Assembly: GCF_000799075.1 (NCBI RefSeq)
Contig: NZ_JTLI01000072.1
Location: forward strand, 1-45,235
Length of the DNA stretch: 45,235 nucleotides
Direction: 5' to 3'
Source: Cetobacterium sp. ZOR0034
GTDB lineage: Bacteria; Fusobacteriota; Fusobacteriia; Fusobacteriales; Fusobacteriaceae
The position numbers and the translations under genes are program-made. The notes beneath the pieces are model-generated. The model was given only the letters and a program-made list of their open reading frames with translations. It was not told the DNA's origin and made no database searches. Shown piece after piece: positions 5,070 through 34,225 of the stretch (positions are counted from its first letter, which is position 1; every line of letters begins with the position of its first letter).

Positions 5070-5098
5070 TTGAACTTTACATACAAATATGGTATTAT
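5070..5098 (+). promoter_or_regulatory. Promoter of the guanine-riboswitch operon
   Basis: TTGAAC (5070-5075), a 17-base spacer and TATTAT (5093-5098) preceded by TGG. The transcript would start about 7 bases downstream, just before the riboswitch aptamer. Confidence 0.75.
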
Positions 5099-5109
5099 AA
5101 TCAATAAAA

Positions 5110-5186
5110 GTTTACTCGTATATTTTGGAAATAAGGTCCAAAAGTTTCTACGTCCTAACCACAAATATGGATGCTATGGGTAGAGA
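5110..5186 (+). ncRNA. Purine (guanine-class) riboswitch aptamer
   Basis: The three-stem purine aptamer is visible. P1 is TTTACTC against GGGTAGAG. P2 is TTTTGGA/TCCAAAA, with GG in its loop. J2/3 is the near-invariant GTTTCTAC. P3 is CGTCC/GGATG, with CC in its loop available for the kissing contact. J3/1 reads GCTATGGG. The base at the specificity position is C (position 5174), which pairs with guanine or hypoxanthine; adenine riboswitches have U there. It precedes a terminator and a probable guanine deaminase and purine permease. Confidence 0.92.
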
Positions 5187-5229
5187 TTATACTAAAAATC
5201 TCTTAAAAATCTATTTTAAGTGGTAATTG

Positions 5230-16178: not shown

Positions 16179-16194
16179 ACCTTAAATTAATATT

Positions 16195-16360
16195 TTGATA
16201 GAGGTTGCGAAATTCAAAAGTAAACAAACTAAGATTTAGTAGGTCAGAGAGGTTTGTTGAAAGGGAAGTTCGCCGAAGTTCAACTTTTTCTACTAGAAAG
16301 ATGAGCTGGGTGTATAAAGAAGATTTATACAACTGTCACCGAAATGGTGTTGTGCTATCG
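16195..16360 (+). ncRNA. Lysine riboswitch (L box)
   Basis: The conserved L-box blocks appear in order: GATAGAGGTTGCGAA at the 5' side of P1/P2, an AAAAGTA block, GAGAGG, AAGGGAAGTTCGCCGAAG, GAGCTGGG, CTGTCACCGAAATGG and TGTGCTATC closing P1. Binding of lysine is expected to stabilise P1 and allow the downstream terminator. It controls lysC-asd-patA-like, the aspartate/lysine branch. Confidence 0.95.
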
Positions 16361-16405
16361 TAGATTATTATTTTAAGCTAACATAGTTGAAATGAGTTTT
16401 TCAGG

Positions 16406-22210: not shown

Positions 22211-22239
22211 TTGACATTTGAGAGAGATTGATATAGAAT
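22211..22239 (+). promoter_or_regulatory. Promoter of the ilv leader and operon
   Basis: Consensus TTGACA (22211-22216), a 17-base spacer and TAGAAT (22234-22239). The leader-peptide ribosome site begins about 15 bases downstream. Confidence 0.8.
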
Positions 22240-22267
22240 CTATAAAAAATTAAAGAAGGAGGAGCTC

Positions 22268-22330
22268 ATGAACAAATTTAAAAACATGTTAACTATAATT
22301 ATAATAATATGCTTTTGGGTTTGGATTTGA
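22268..22330 (+). CDS. ilv leader peptide (20 aa)
   Basis: A small frame with a strong GGAGGAG ribosome site. The peptide is MNKFKNMLTIIIIICFWVWI: Leu8, five consecutive Ile (10-14, codons ATA ATT ATA ATA ATA), Val18 and Ile20, then TGA. This is the expected composition of a branched-chain amino-acid attenuator peptide. It is followed by alternative stems and a terminator, and then by ilvDBNC. The final codons (22317-22328) form the first arm of the alternative-stem series. A ribosome finishing the peptide would mask them, whereas one stalled at the Ile run would not. Confidence 0.85.
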   Translation: MNKFKNMLTIIIIICFWVWI

Positions 22331-22389
22331 TGAGTTATATCTCTGAAAATATTCAAGCCTTATTTTGTTATAAAAATAAAGGCTTGAGC
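22317..22389 (+). promoter_or_regulatory. Alternative stems of the ilv attenuator
   Basis: Three mutually exclusive pairings can be drawn by eye. Stem 1:2 pairs 22317-22328 with 22349-22360 (G-U pairs and one mismatch). Stem 2:3 pairs TCAAGCCTTATTTT (from 22353) with the AAAATAAAGGCTTGA arm ending at 22387. Stem 3:4 pairs AGGCTTGAGC (22380-22389) with GCTTAAGTCT (22411-22420), which is the 5' arm of the terminator. A stalled ribosome permits 1:2, then 3:4, which blocks termination. A completed leader permits 2:3, then the terminator. Confidence 0.7.
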
Positions 22390-22406
22390 AAAAGGTATGA
22401 AGTTTT

Positions 22407-22442
22407 AAGAGCTTAAGTCTATAGATTTAAGCTCTTTTTTTT
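22407..22442 (+). terminator. ilv attenuator terminator
   Basis: A 13-bp stem AAGAGCTTAAGTC (22407-22419) with GATTTAAGCTCTT (22424-22436), loop TATA, followed by about nine T. It lies 30 bases before ilvD. Confidence 0.92.
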
Positions 22443-22472: not shown

Positions 22473-24128
22473 ATGAGAAGCGAGATTGTAACAAAAGGAT
22501 TAAGTAGAGCACCACATAGAGCACTTTTTTATTCAATGGGATTAACAGAGAGAGAGCTAGAGCTTCCCAAAGTGGGAATCGTAAATTCATATAATGAGAT
22601 TGTTCCAGGTCATATTCATTTAAAAAATCTTGTCGAGGAGGTCAAAGCTGGAATAAGAATGAATGGAGGAGTTCCGATGGAGTTTAATACAATAGCTATT
22701 TGTGATGGAATTGCTATGGGGCATGAGGGGATGAAGAACTCTCTTCCGACAAGAGAACTTATTGCAGATTCAATAGAAGCAACAGCATACGCAATGCCCT
22801 TTGATGCGCTTGTTTTTATGCCTAGTTGTGATAAAGTTGTACCAGGAATGTTGATGGCAGCTGTAAGATTAAATCTACCATCAATTTTTATAGGTGGAGG
22901 ACCAATGTTGGCTGGAAAATTTAAAGGAAAAAAAGTGGGGATTTCAGATCTGTTTGAATATGTTGGAAAAGTTCAAAGTGGAGAGATGTCAGTAAATGAA
23001 TTGAATGAAGCGGAGCACGAGACTTGTAAAACATATGGATCATGCTCAGGAATGTATACTGCAAATACGATGAATTGCTTAACAGAAGCGTTGGGAATAG
23101 CACTTCCAAAGAACGGAACGGTACCCAGTGTATATTCAGAAAGAAAAAGATTAGCCAAAGAATCCGGATTTCAGGTAATGGAATTATTTAGAAAAAATAT
23201 TAGAGCGAGAGATATTATAAATGAAAAAAGCTTATATAACTCAGTTCTTGTTGACATGGCACTTGGAGGGTCGACAAATACAACTCTTCATTTACCAGCA
23301 ATAGCTTATGAGTGTGAGGTAAAACTGAATCTAGATATGTTTGATGAAGTGTCAAAAAAAACAAAGCAGATAGTTAAATTATCTCCAGCAAATTCACATT
23401 TTATAGAGGAGTTTGATGAAGCCGGGGGAGTAAGTGCTGTTTTAAAAATTTTAAAAGAAAAAGATTTGTTGAAATCTAATCAGACAGTTTTACTAAAAAA
23501 TATATTAGAGATTGCAGAAAAAGCAAAAATATTAGATAAAGATATAATTAGAGATTTTGAATCTTCATATTTTGATACAGGTGGAATCTCTATACTGAAA
23601 GGAAATTTAGCTCCGAAGGGTGCAGTTGTAAAATCAGGAGCGGTTCATGAAAGCATGTTAGTACATAAAGGGGAAGCAAAAGTTTTTAATTCTGAAGAGG
23701 AAGCTTATGAAAGTATTTTGAGCGGAAAAATAAAGAAGGGGGACGTAATAGTCATTCGTTATGAAGGTCCAAAAGGTGGGCCTGGAATGAGGGAGATGTT
23801 ATCACCAACAGCAGCTTTAGTAGGTATGGGATTAGATATGTATTGTGCTTTACTAACAGATGGAAGATTTTCTGGTGGGTCTAGAGGGGCTGCTATAGGT
23901 CATATATCACCAGAAGCTTCGGATGGAGGACTTATAGCTTATGTAGAAGATGGAGATTGTATAGAGATAGATATTCCTAAAAATAGAGTTGAGCTTTTGA
24001 TATCAGAGGAGGAGATAGAAAAAAGAAAAGCGAGTACAACACTTTTAAAAAGAGATATAAAAAATAGAATGCTTCAAAAATATGTAAAATTAGTTTCAGA
24101 TTCATCTGAAGGAGCAGTAACTAGATAG
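22473..24128 (+). CDS. ilvD: Dihydroxy-acid dehydratase
   Basis: An Fe-S dehydratase converting dihydroxy acids to 2-keto acids in valine and isoleucine synthesis; 551 aa, within the family range. Candidate cluster ligands are Cys119 (MPSCDK) and Cys191 (YGSCSGM). Other signatures are [25 protein letters not shown] (76-87), [26 protein letters not shown] and [10 protein letters not shown]. The ATG has a GAGGGAGG site. It is first in ilvDBNC, behind the leader-peptide attenuator. Confidence 0.95.
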
Positions 24129-24137
24129 GAGGAGAAA

Positions 24138-25802
24138 GTGGAAAAAATATCGGGAGCAAAAATAGTTTTAGAGACACTAAAATATTTAGGGGTTACAGAT
24201 ATTTTTGGATATCCAGGGGGAGCCGTAATTCCTATTTATGATGCATTGTATGATTTCAAAGGAATAAATCACTATATGGCAAGACATGAGCAAGGAGCAG
24301 TTCACAGTGCAGATGGATACGCAAGAACTAAAAAAAATCCAGGAGTTTGCCTAGCCACATCAGGACCAGGAGCAACAAATTTAGTCACAGGTATTATGAC
24401 AGCACACATGGATTCGATTCCGATTTTGACAATAACAGGTCAGGTAGGAACTGCAGCTTTAGGGAAAGATTCTTTTCAAGAAAGTGATATTATTGGAATA
24501 ACATCACCAATAACAAAAAATAACTATTTAGTAAGGAGTCTGTTTGAGTTACCTAAGGTATTGAAAGAAGCGTATGAATTATCTAAGCACGGAAGACCAG
24601 GGCCGGTGTTAGTAGATATCCCAAAAAATATTCAAGAGCAGGAGATGGAGTATTCTCAATTTGAAGAACTTTTAAAAATTGAAGTGGAGAGTATTAAAAA
24701 ATTTAAATCGTTATACACAGAGAAAGAGATTTTCGACTTTGAAAAATATTTGAAGAATTCTAAAAAACCAGTTTTGATTGTAGGAGGTGGAATTTTAAAT
24801 AGTAGATGTGTCGATGAGGTTAGAAAGTTTGCAAATAGAATAAAAATTCCTATAGTTTCCACTCTTATGGGATTAGGAATATTTAATAGAAGTGATGAGG
24901 AGTATCTTGGAATGATTGGTATGCATGGATTAAAAGAAGCTAATAGAGCTGTTGATGAATGCGATCTGCTTATAGCTATTGGAATGAGATTTGATGATCG
25001 AATTGTAGGAGATAAAACAAAATTTTCACCGAATTCAAAAAAAATTCATATAGACATAGATAGAGCTGAGATGAATAAAAATATAGTTGTAGACTTACCT
25101 ATTATAGGGGATGCAAAGGAGGTATTGGAAAGAGTTTTAAAATTAGATTTAAAAGAGAATTTTCAAGAGTGGCGAACGACTTTAAAAAGAGATGAATTTA
25201 TAGAAAAAGAGTGCTTGAATCAACTAGCAGTTTTAAATGTTTTAAACGAAGTTATAGATGAAAATTATATAGTGGTTACAGATGTAGGACAACACCAGAT
25301 GTTTACAGCTCAGTGTCTAGATATAAAAAAACCATTTCAATTTTGCACATCAGGTGGAGCAGGAACCATGGGATATGGACTTCCGGCTGCAATAGGGGCA
25401 CAAGTGGCAAACAGAGATAAAAAAGTGATACTGATTGTTGGAGATGGTGGTTTTCAGATGAATCAACAGGAGTTAATTTTATTAAGACAATATAATCTGC
25501 CTGTAAAAATATTGATATTTAATAATGGGGCTTTAGGAATGGTTAAACAATGGCAAGAGCTTTTCAATAACAGAAGATATTCGAGTGTGATTTTGGACAT
25601 AAATCCAGATTTTGTTAAATTGGGAAATGCTCATTTCGTGGATGGTGAAAGGATAGATAATCTAAAAAAATTAAAAAATATTAAAAAGTTTTTAGAAAAT
25701 GATAAACCATACCTTTTGGACATTAAGATGTCATATGATCATAATGTTTATCCAATAATACCAGCAGGAAAATCTTATGAGCACACAATCGGAGGTGAGT
25801 AA
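24138..25802 (+). CDS. ilvB: Acetolactate synthase, large subunit
   Basis: A ThDP-dependent acetohydroxyacid synthase of 554 aa. GASIxx-type N terminus (SGAKIVLETLKYLGV), then FGYPGGAVIPIYDAL with RHEQGAVHSADGYAR (catalytic Glu), and TSGPGATNLVTG. A central FAD/nucleotide-like domain follows. The C-terminal ThDP motif begins GDGGFQMN and ends in FNNGALGMVKQWQ. The start is GTG with AGGAGGAG upstream, 9 bases after ilvD. The regulatory subunit follows directly, which supports biosynthetic AHAS rather than catabolic AlsS. Confidence 0.95.
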   Translation: MEKISGAKIVLETLKYLGVTDIFGYPGGAVIPIYDALYDFKGINHYMARHEQGAVHSADGYARTKKNPGVCLATSGPGATNLVTGIMTAHMDSIPILTITGQVGTAALGKDSFQESDIIGITSPITKNNYLVRSLFELPKVLKEAYELSKHGRPGPVLVDIPKNIQEQEMEYSQFEELLKIEVESIKKFKSLYTEKEIFDFEKYLKNSKKPVLIVGGGILNSRCVDEVRKFANRIKIPIVSTLMGLGIFNRSDEEYLGMIGMHGLKEANRAVDECDLLIAIGMRFDDRIVGDKTKFSPNSKKIHIDIDRAEMNKNIVVDLPIIGDAKEVLERVLKLDLKENFQEWRTTLKRDEFIEKECLNQLAVLNVLNEVIDENYIVVTDVGQHQMFTAQCLDIKKPFQFCTSGGAGTMGYGLPAAIGAQVANRDKKVILIVGDGGFQMNQQELILLRQYNLPVKILIFNNGALGMVKQWQELFNNRRYSSVILDINPDFVKLGNAHFVDGERIDNLKKLKNIKKFLENDKPYLLDIKMSYDHNVYPIIPAGKSYEHTIGGE

Positions 25803-25805
25803 TTA

Positions 25806-26288
25806 TTGGAAGCAAAAAGAATTCTTTTGATTATGAAAAATAAACCCGGTGTTTTGAATAAAATATCTGGATTGTTTCAGAAAAGGGGAATAAATATTGA
25901 AAATATAACTGCAGGAGAGGGATATCCAGAAGAAACAGTTCGAATGACAATAACAGGTTTTTGGGATGAGTATACATTGAATCAAGTAATTGTACAAGCT
26001 GAAAAATTATTTGATGTTGAATTTATAAAAGCATTTTGTAAAGAGAGTGTTTTTAGAGAGTTGGTTTTAATAAAGGTCAAAGTTGATTCTAAAAGTCGAC
26101 AAGAGTTACTTCAAATTTTAGATATTTATAGAGGATCAGTAGTAGATGTTGGACTTCATAGTTTGATTTTAGAGTTGACAGGGGATATAGGAAAAATAGA
26201 TGGGTTTTTAAAATTGATTAAAAACTTTGAAATATTGGAGCTCGCCAGAACAGGTGTTTCTGGAATGACTAGAGGGATTGAGATTTAA
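25806..26288 (+). CDS. ilvN: Acetolactate synthase, small regulatory subunit
   Basis: The valine-sensing partner of IlvB, 160 aa as usual. An N-terminal ACT domain (ILLIMKNKPGVLNKISGLFQ, then RGINIENITAG) is followed by the C-terminal AHAS-small domain (RELVLIKVKVDSKSR through ELARTGVSGMTRG). It starts with TTG; its GGAGGTGA site lies within the end of ilvB, 3 bases before, indicating translational coupling. Confidence 0.93.
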   Translation: MEAKRILLIMKNKPGVLNKISGLFQKRGINIENITAGEGYPEETVRMTITGFWDEYTLNQVIVQAEKLFDVEFIKAFCKESVFRELVLIKVKVDSKSRQELLQILDIYRGSVVDVGLHSLILELTGDIGKIDGFLKLIKNFEILELARTGVSGMTRGIEI

Positions 26289-26321: not shown

Positions 26322-27272
26322 ATGAGTTTATCAGGAAAAAAAGTTGTGGTATTTGGATATGGATCTCAAGGGCATGCACACGCACTAAATTTAAAAGAGT
26401 GTGGATATGATGTCAGTGTAGCTTTAAGAGAGGATAGTGGAAGTTGGGATAAAGCAGAGAAAAATGGATTCCAAGTTTTAAATTTGAAAAATGGAGCGGA
26501 AGTTGCAGATGTAGCAATGCTTTTAGTACCTGATGAAAATCAACCGGAACTATATAAAAATTATTTAAAAGACGGACTTAAAGAGGGTGCCTTTTTAGGA
26601 TTTGCTCACGGATTTAATATTCATTACTCACAAATTAATCCAAGAGAAGACTTAAATGTTTTTATGGTTGCCCCAAAATCTCCAGGGCACAAAGTTAGAG
26701 AGAAATTTTTAGAAAAAGAGGGAGTTCCAGCTTTAATCTCAATTTATCAAGATCCATCAAAAGAAACCTTGCAGTTAGCAAAAGATTGGGCAAAAGGCGT
26801 TTGTTTAGATTTAGGAGTTTTAGAAACTACTTTTAAAGAGGAGACTGAAACAGATTTGTTTGGAGAGCAAGCTGTTTTGTGTGGAGGATTAGTAGAACTT
26901 ATGAAAGCAGGGTATGAAACTCTTTTAAATGCAGGGTATGATGAGAAGTTAGCATACTTTGAGTGTGTTCATGAGATGAAGTTAATAGTAGATTTGATTT
27001 ATTCGAAGGGATTTGCGGCAATGAGAGAATCAATCTCTAATACGGCTGAGTATGGAGATTATGTAACTGGTAAAAAAATTGTTACAAAAGAGAGTAGAGA
27101 AAATATGAAAGAGGTTTTAGAGAATATTCAGAATGGAAGATTTGCAAAAGATTTTATCTTGGAAGGTCAGACTGGATATCCAGTTTTAAAAACGATGAGA
27201 AATAGATGTAAAACTGATAAGATCGAGTTAGTTGGAAATGAATTGAGAGATATGATGTTTTCGAAAAAATAG
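26322..27272 (+). CDS. ilvC: Ketol-acid reductoisomerase
   Basis: A class I NADPH-dependent isomeroreductase that makes dihydroxy-isovalerate and dihydroxy-methylvalerate. It has 316 aa. The dinucleotide loop FGYGSQGHAHALNL is at 11-24. The C-terminal knotted domain keeps the metal and substrate residues: ETDLFGEQAVLCGG, YFECVHEMKLIVDLIY and SISNTAEYGD. Relative to common KARIs of about 330 aa it lacks the first 14 or so residues (the usual YYDKDAD segment). The ATG has GAGGAGGAG upstream and no in-frame extension is apparent. It is the last gene of the ilv operon. Confidence 0.94.
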   Translation: MSLSGKKVVVFGYGSQGHAHALNLKECGYDVSVALREDSGSWDKAEKNGFQVLNLKNGAEVADVAMLLVPDENQPELYKNYLKDGLKEGAFLGFAHGFNIHYSQINPREDLNVFMVAPKSPGHKVREKFLEKEGVPALISIYQDPSKETLQLAKDWAKGVCLDLGVLETTFKEETETDLFGEQAVLCGGLVELMKAGYETLLNAGYDEKLAYFECVHEMKLIVDLIYSKGFAAMRESISNTAEYGDYVTGKKIVTKESRENMKEVLENIQNGRFAKDFILEGQTGYPVLKTMRNRCKTDKIELVGNELRDMMFSKK

Positions 27273-34098: not shown

Positions 34099-34129
34099 AG
34101 AACACAATTATAGAAGATAAATGTGTGTT

Positions 34130-34208
34130 AAGACTACTTCCCTACGCTAGTATTAACTAGATCAGGTTCTAAGGGTAAAATCTCAGCCCGAAGGCACCCC
34201 TAGTAGTT
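34130..34208 (-). ncRNA. TPP riboswitch (THI box)
   Basis: On the minus strand the conserved blocks read in order: ACTACT (P1), AGGGGTGCC, GGGCTGAGA, ACCCTTAGAACCTGATCTAG, TACTAGCGTAGGGAAGT, then AGT closing P1. These are the pyrimidine-sensing CTGAGA loop and the pyrophosphate-sensing GCGTAGGGAA. With TPP bound, the terminator at 34055-34098 should form and silence tenA-thiZXY. The aptamer begins only about 20 bases after the ssb stop codon. Confidence 0.96.
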
Positions 34209-34225
34209 TATAAATTATTTAATTA

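Follow-up and report, generated by a model that had tools for sequence, protein, structure and literature searches.

The DNA upstream of the ilvDBNC operon of Cetobacterium sp. ZOR0034 carries a leader that is best read as a ribosome-mediated transcription attenuator. It would sense charged tRNA-Ile, and through one codon also charged tRNA-Leu, and in this way gate ilvDBNC. The probability of this reading is put at roughly 0.9. Very probably, the switch reads the isoleucine supply through the speed of the ribosome over five isoleucine codons. The type of mechanism is known; in the phylum Fusobacteriota it is apparently undescribed. In what follows, the window is the whole stretch of DNA that was analysed, 45,235 nucleotides long.

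The leader region is flanked by ilvDBNC and by a PTS gene that runs divergently, both assigned with Pfam, and all its features are on the forward (+) strand. The sigma-70-type promoter is TTGACA-N17-TAGAAT at 22211-22239. As an earlier sequence-only reading had noted, this is close to consensus, with 11 of 12 matches, and it is kept in 7/7 congeners. By a consensus scan alone it is not significant (4 promoter-like sites, 3.7 expected). The leader ORF starts with the ATG at 22268, ends at 22330, and consists of 20 codons plus TGA; it encodes MNKFKNMLTIIIIICFWVWI and is kept in 7 congeners. Its Shine-Dalgarno sequence, AAGGAGGAG at 22256-22264, is kept in 19 family members. The control codons Ile10 to Ile14 (ATA ATT ATA ATA ATA) occupy 22295-22309. 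Between this ORF and ilvD sits the intrinsic terminator that the same reading had proposed, with 13 pairs at 22407-22436 followed by a U tract (1 terminator-like site, 0.1 expected). The putative first regulated gene is ilvD (22473-24128, dihydroxy-acid dehydratase; PF00920, PF24877). It is followed by ilvB (24138-25802) and ilvN (25806-26288), the large and small subunits of acetolactate synthase, and by ilvC (26322-27272, ketol-acid reductoisomerase), all three assigned with Pfam. The window also holds three riboswitch aptamers above gathering score: purine at 5096-5196 (+), lysine at 16191-16365 (+) and TPP at 34122-34211 (-).

The sequence-only reading had divided the leader into five segments; folding points to six, A to F. 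Segment A (22258-22285) covers the Shine-Dalgarno and start region and the first codons, and is the partner of B in untranslated RNA, as suggested by folding, shuffles and a compensatory change. Segment B (22312-22344, core 22317-22326) contains the last codons of the ORF and its stop. With C (22351-22366) and D (22373-22389) it corresponds to segments 1, 2 and 3 of the earlier scheme. Segment E (22407-22421) is the 5’ arm of the terminator and has D as its alternative partner. Segment F is the 3’ arm (22422-22436), and with the U tract it extends to 22443.

The three alternative stems of the earlier scheme are found where it had placed them. B:C (1:2) pairs 22317-22326 with 22351-22360, C:D (2:3) pairs 22352-22366 with 22373-22388, and D:E (3:4) pairs 22380-22389 with 22411-22420. 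What that scheme lacked is A:B, between 22258-22291 and 22305-22344. Single helices were scored against dinucleotide shuffles. The A:B duplex is matched by 7/2000 shuffles, C:D by 11/2000, D:E by 1/2000 (13/2000 if all of 22332-22404 is shuffled) and E:F, stem 4:5 in the same numbering, by 0/2000. B:C is unremarkable in the window alone, at about 210-220 of 2000 shuffles, or some 1 in 10. Its weight therefore rests on conservation. The whole leader folds with z = -4.89, and 0/200 shuffles are equally stable.

The effect of the ribosome was modelled by folding only the RNA that is free downstream of it, for each codon and for several transcript lengths. The leading edge was set about 12 nt beyond the start of the A-site codon. 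Treating the ribosome as an unpaired mask, with pairing allowed across it, proved misleading, and downstream-only folding was used instead. Without a ribosome, the leader in the window has 22.6 expected pairs in A:B, 14.4 in C:D and 0 in D:E. For a transcript that reaches segment E, a ribosome at Ile11-13 gives an expected 6.1-9.6 pairs of D:E. With the ribosome anywhere from Ile14 to the stop the value is 0, and C:D has about 14.5 pairs. Put differently, with the modelled ribosome at Leu8 to Ile13, B:C and D:E compete with C:D, and from Ile14 onward there is only C:D. In these computed folds the antiterminator helix is exclusive with the terminator and depends on where the ribosome is on the control codons.

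The result has the same direction in 7/7 ilvD leaders. At the level of predicted folds, this agrees with the earlier proposal that a stalled ribosome leads to read-through and a finished peptide to termination. All seven untranslated RNAs form A:B (22-27 expected pairs) and C:D, with at most 1.2 pairs of D:E before F is present. At Ile10-13, D:E makes up only part of the equilibrium ensemble; in three leaders (L084, L086, L087) it falls to about 1.4-3 of 10 pairs when the ribosome is at Ile10-11. A generic arm-opening statistic is weak for single Cetobacterium ilvD leaders (4-43 of 200 shuffles). In the complete leader at equilibrium, C:D and E:F are always preferred. Because the finished leader prefers the terminator, read-through would require that D:E forms first and persists until RNA polymerase has cleared the U tract.

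From these folds we infer that ribosomes stall on the leader, that this decides between termination and read-through, and that the leader responds to amino acids. In untranslated RNA, A:B would form and leave C to pair with D, so that E stays free for the E:F terminator and the operon is off. This means that an untranslated leader is predicted to terminate, because A pairs with B. If isoleucine is scarce, a ribosome would wait at Ile10-13, covering A and leaving B free. B:C would then form, and D would take E as it emerges, which pre-empts the terminator; the operon is on. If isoleucine is plentiful, the ribosome would reach the stop codon and cover B, giving C:D and E:F, and the operon would be off again.

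Where the ribosome has to wait is constrained by segment B. In 19/19 elements, B stays free up to and including a codon close to where the Ile/Leu run ends, at most two codons before that point or one codon beyond it, as checked for ribosome-edge offsets of +10 to +16 nt. In the model, the sensing codons are Leu8 and Ile10-13, and only these. The sequence-only reading had also listed the later Val and Ile codons of the peptide, Val18 and Ile20; these two cannot serve read-through, because a ribosome there covers B.

Among congeners, the leader unit is found directly upstream of ilvD in 7/7 genomes where ilvD was found. The window’s leader is 89-92% identical to theirs; four-fold sites in ilvD give 0.47-0.54. 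The Ile run is invariant at the nucleotide level in 7 species. For comparison, ilvD uses the same codon in all 7 at just 3 of its 20 universally conserved Ile positions. Conservation begins with the promoter, since the DNA further upstream differs among the loci that were read in this orientation. A loss of the peptide or of the pairings in related genomes had been named as grounds for abandoning the attenuator; the element is kept in all seven. Beyond the RNA, the peptide itself is not conserved. In L082 (UBA6069), K5E and W17R jointly convert the pair A22280-U22316 to G-C, a compensatory change. In L083 the peptide stops early, at Val19, and the RNA pairing is kept. Four congeners (G008, G012, G013 and G014) are without an ilvD or ilvE match and without the attenuator.

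The element is not confined to ilvD. A sequence model built from 7 leaders was used to search 98 Fusobacteriota genomes, and further elements were found in this genus only. Two weak chance matches, L158 in G046 and L159 in G044, were dropped as unrelated DNA. The genome of the window itself holds two paralogous elements that the sequence-only reading, confined to its own stretch of DNA, had missed. L165 (G000:C25:14053-14264) is upstream of ilvE, which is followed by a CstA-like gene, and its peptide is MNTKLKFGFLLALIIIILSSSV. L166 (G000:C69:1106-1317) is upstream of a BASS-family transporter gene and encodes MNTNKKTLAALILIIIIICSVV. The ilvE assignment is above cut-off for NF005146 and TIGR01122. 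For the transporter, TIGR00841 matches best, ahead of PanS, and neither reaches its cut-off. An L-LDH-family gene follows the BASS gene in the relatives G010 and G004.

The ilvE copy is present in 8/8 congeners with ilvE, and a DNA pattern search did not find the element in the 4 congeners without it. The BASS-gene copy is present in 4/4 cases whose upstream DNA can be read; one more such gene is cut by a contig end. G010 has no ilvD, yet keeps the elements at ilvE and the BASS gene. When folded without a ribosome, the ilvE members form A:B in 8/8 cases, with 0-3 D:E pairs. In 3/4 BASS-gene members the six-segment alternation with a terminating untranslated RNA is not reproduced, and D:E is predicted wherever the ribosome stands. 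The switch is therefore less clear at the BASS genes.

Probably, the three paralogous elements form a three-operon regulon that responds to branched-chain amino acids. A wider reading is that one six-segment attenuator was duplicated within Cetobacterium onto the ilvDBNC, ilvE/CstA-like and BASS (with or without L-LDH-like) operons, and that the BASS and LDH-like proteins salvage branched-chain 2-oxo and 2-hydroxy acids for IlvE. We would give this even odds. The LeuA dimerisation domain had no match in the genome of the window, while the same search was positive in 14/14 control genomes. Leucine may therefore come from an imported precursor or from uptake.

Covariation was assessed on an alignment of 19 elements, using a shuffle control that ignores relatedness. 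For C:D and E:F together, 27 cells carry a change in both partners, where shuffles have 9.3 (0/500), and the covariation score is 0.147 against 0.089 (0/500). The number of pairs bearing two-sided changes, which is 5, is no excess over shuffles (124/500). As most of these changes fall between the three paralog groups, they represent few events. D:E is paired in 188/190 cells. Segment E differs across whole paralog groups at two positions that face D, and both pairs are still allowed. B:C and D:E have no covariation beyond shuffles, because both barely vary.

Other explanations of the leader have been weighed. The leader peptide has a strongly hydrophobic character, and the ilvD leaders hardly vary in its C-terminal residues CFWVWI. 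It is therefore conceivable that the nascent chain IIIIICFWVWI itself halts the ribosome upon binding a ligand, instead of the ribosome being slowed by Ile decoding. The W17R change in L082 and the early end at Val19 in L083 speak against this, since both keep the RNA pairing. The paralogs moreover end differently (LSSSV, SSMVWC, CSVV), yet retain both the Ile/Leu run and segment B. Such an arrest peptide is considered highly unlikely. A ligand-binding riboswitch or a T-box could also control the terminator, with the ORF being incidental. A biosynthetic operon leader under terminator control would suit this, and T-boxes do exist in some Fusobacteriota, with matches in 20/98 genomes. However, no T-box (RF00230) match was found in the genome of the window or in its congeners. 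The fusobacterial T-boxes that were inspected precede asparagine synthetase-like, aminoacyl-tRNA-synthetase-like and trpE-like genes (named by eye), and none precedes ilv. No Rfam match in the leader is above gathering score; among the amino-acid leader families the best is the RF04312 trpB motif, at 30.2 bits where 59 is needed. The Shine-Dalgarno sequence, the ORF and the Ile/Leu run are, on the other hand, kept in 19 elements. This explanation is regarded as extremely improbable.

A further alternative is a small expressed protein followed by a partial terminator that is not regulated, with Ile codons that reflect a membrane peptide and AT-richness. ATA and ATT are indeed the common Ile codons in this genome, and short Ile-rich ORFs do arise by chance in AT-rich DNA. 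An unregulated terminator does not account for the alternative segments, or for where the run sits with respect to B in 19/19 elements. Nor does it account for D:E being maintained while E:F covaries, for a run that is invariant down to the nucleotide, or for analogous leaders of other sequence in other genera. It too has a very slim chance of being right. Ribosome-mediated attenuation is supported as by far the best reading of this leader.

These other genera are of the same family. An Ile/Val/Leu-rich ORF with a Shine-Dalgarno sequence and a terminator precedes ilvD in L119, L120, L121, L127, L094, L095, L122 (Fusobacterium gastrosuis) and L130. None of these leaders matches the Cetobacterium model. 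By sequence they are unrelated to its element, yet analogous in kind. For L119, L120, L121 and L130, folding predicts that upstream RNA holds the terminator arm as long as the ribosome is within the run, and that the arm is free with the ribosome at the stop. The stall-minus-stop difference is reached by 0/200, 1/200, 0/200 and 1/200 shuffles respectively. L095 has 0/200 for the stalled state alone, L127 is weaker (10/200), and L094 and L122 have no switch by this arm-opening method. The ORFs of these leaders are mostly longer than that of Cetobacterium. Their layout is apparently simpler, with a segment just past the run pairing with the terminator arm. L095, from G046, has two consecutive GCTAAC-type hairpins with T-runs after its leader ORF, perhaps tandem terminators.

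Attenuation by leader peptides is not new. In E. coli the ilvGMEDA, ilvBN and leu operons, all for branched-chain amino acids, are controlled in this way. To our knowledge, these leaders are not close paralogs, although they share one cell. They also differ from the present leader in peptides and segment numbers. The his operon leader has segments A to F, in which A:B, C:D and E:F terminate and B:C with D:E reads through. The Cetobacterium element has the same off and on sets. It likewise has an additional hairpin, placed after that of the ORF and before the terminator, and is predicted to terminate when untranslated. Unlike the enteric his leader, it would sense Ile (and Leu) rather than His, has another sequence, phylum and operon, and is known from computed folds. 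For the E. coli and Salmonella his leader, the additional hairpin has been discussed as what keeps basal read-through low; the three branched-chain leaders of E. coli named above are listed in the same work (PMC1183508).

The sequence-only reading had also held that Proteobacteria use ribosome-stalling ilv attenuators and Firmicutes T-boxes. This is too simple, as Listeria and Staphylococcus aureus have leader-peptide attenuators before ilvD (PMC5864092, PMC5794164). Rli60 of Listeria monocytogenes is a ribosome-mediated attenuator that was tested by mutation. Like the present leader, it has branched-chain codons in its peptide and a terminator directly before ilvD. Its start-codon mutants are super-attenuators, which matches what is predicted here. 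It differs in having a terminator (segments 3:4) against one antiterminator, with CodY on top (PMC5864092). The S. aureus attenuator, proposed with genetic support, also combines a leader peptide with a terminator before ilvD. It is however Leu-rich and Leu-responsive, and has another antiterminator scheme, in whose model the terminator stem stays intact (PMC5794164). In Actinobacteria there are candidate ilvB leader peptides (PMC1262725) and a Corynebacterium uORF (PMC10272879). These resemble the present case in having a short ORF with an Ile/Val/Leu run upstream of ilv genes. Their runs, in contrast, overlap the candidate terminators, and the mode of regulation in Streptomyces is not clear (PMC1262725). 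The earlier reading knew of no well-described case in Fusobacteria. Searches on attenuation in Fusobacteria and Cetobacterium, which covered the openly accessible literature, found no description of leader-peptide attenuation in Fusobacteriota there.

The leader suggests that branched-chain synthesis in Fusobacteriota is subject to classical attenuation by ribosome stalling, and that a his-type six-segment layout has been put to use for isoleucine. As two sister copies sit at other genes, one old mechanism would here make up a small regulon. Because sister copies precede a transporter gene, the element also predicts a testable function for that gene, namely the uptake of branched-chain precursors. 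The unrelated sequences that appear to do the same trick in other genera may be useful for learning how attenuators arise and spread.
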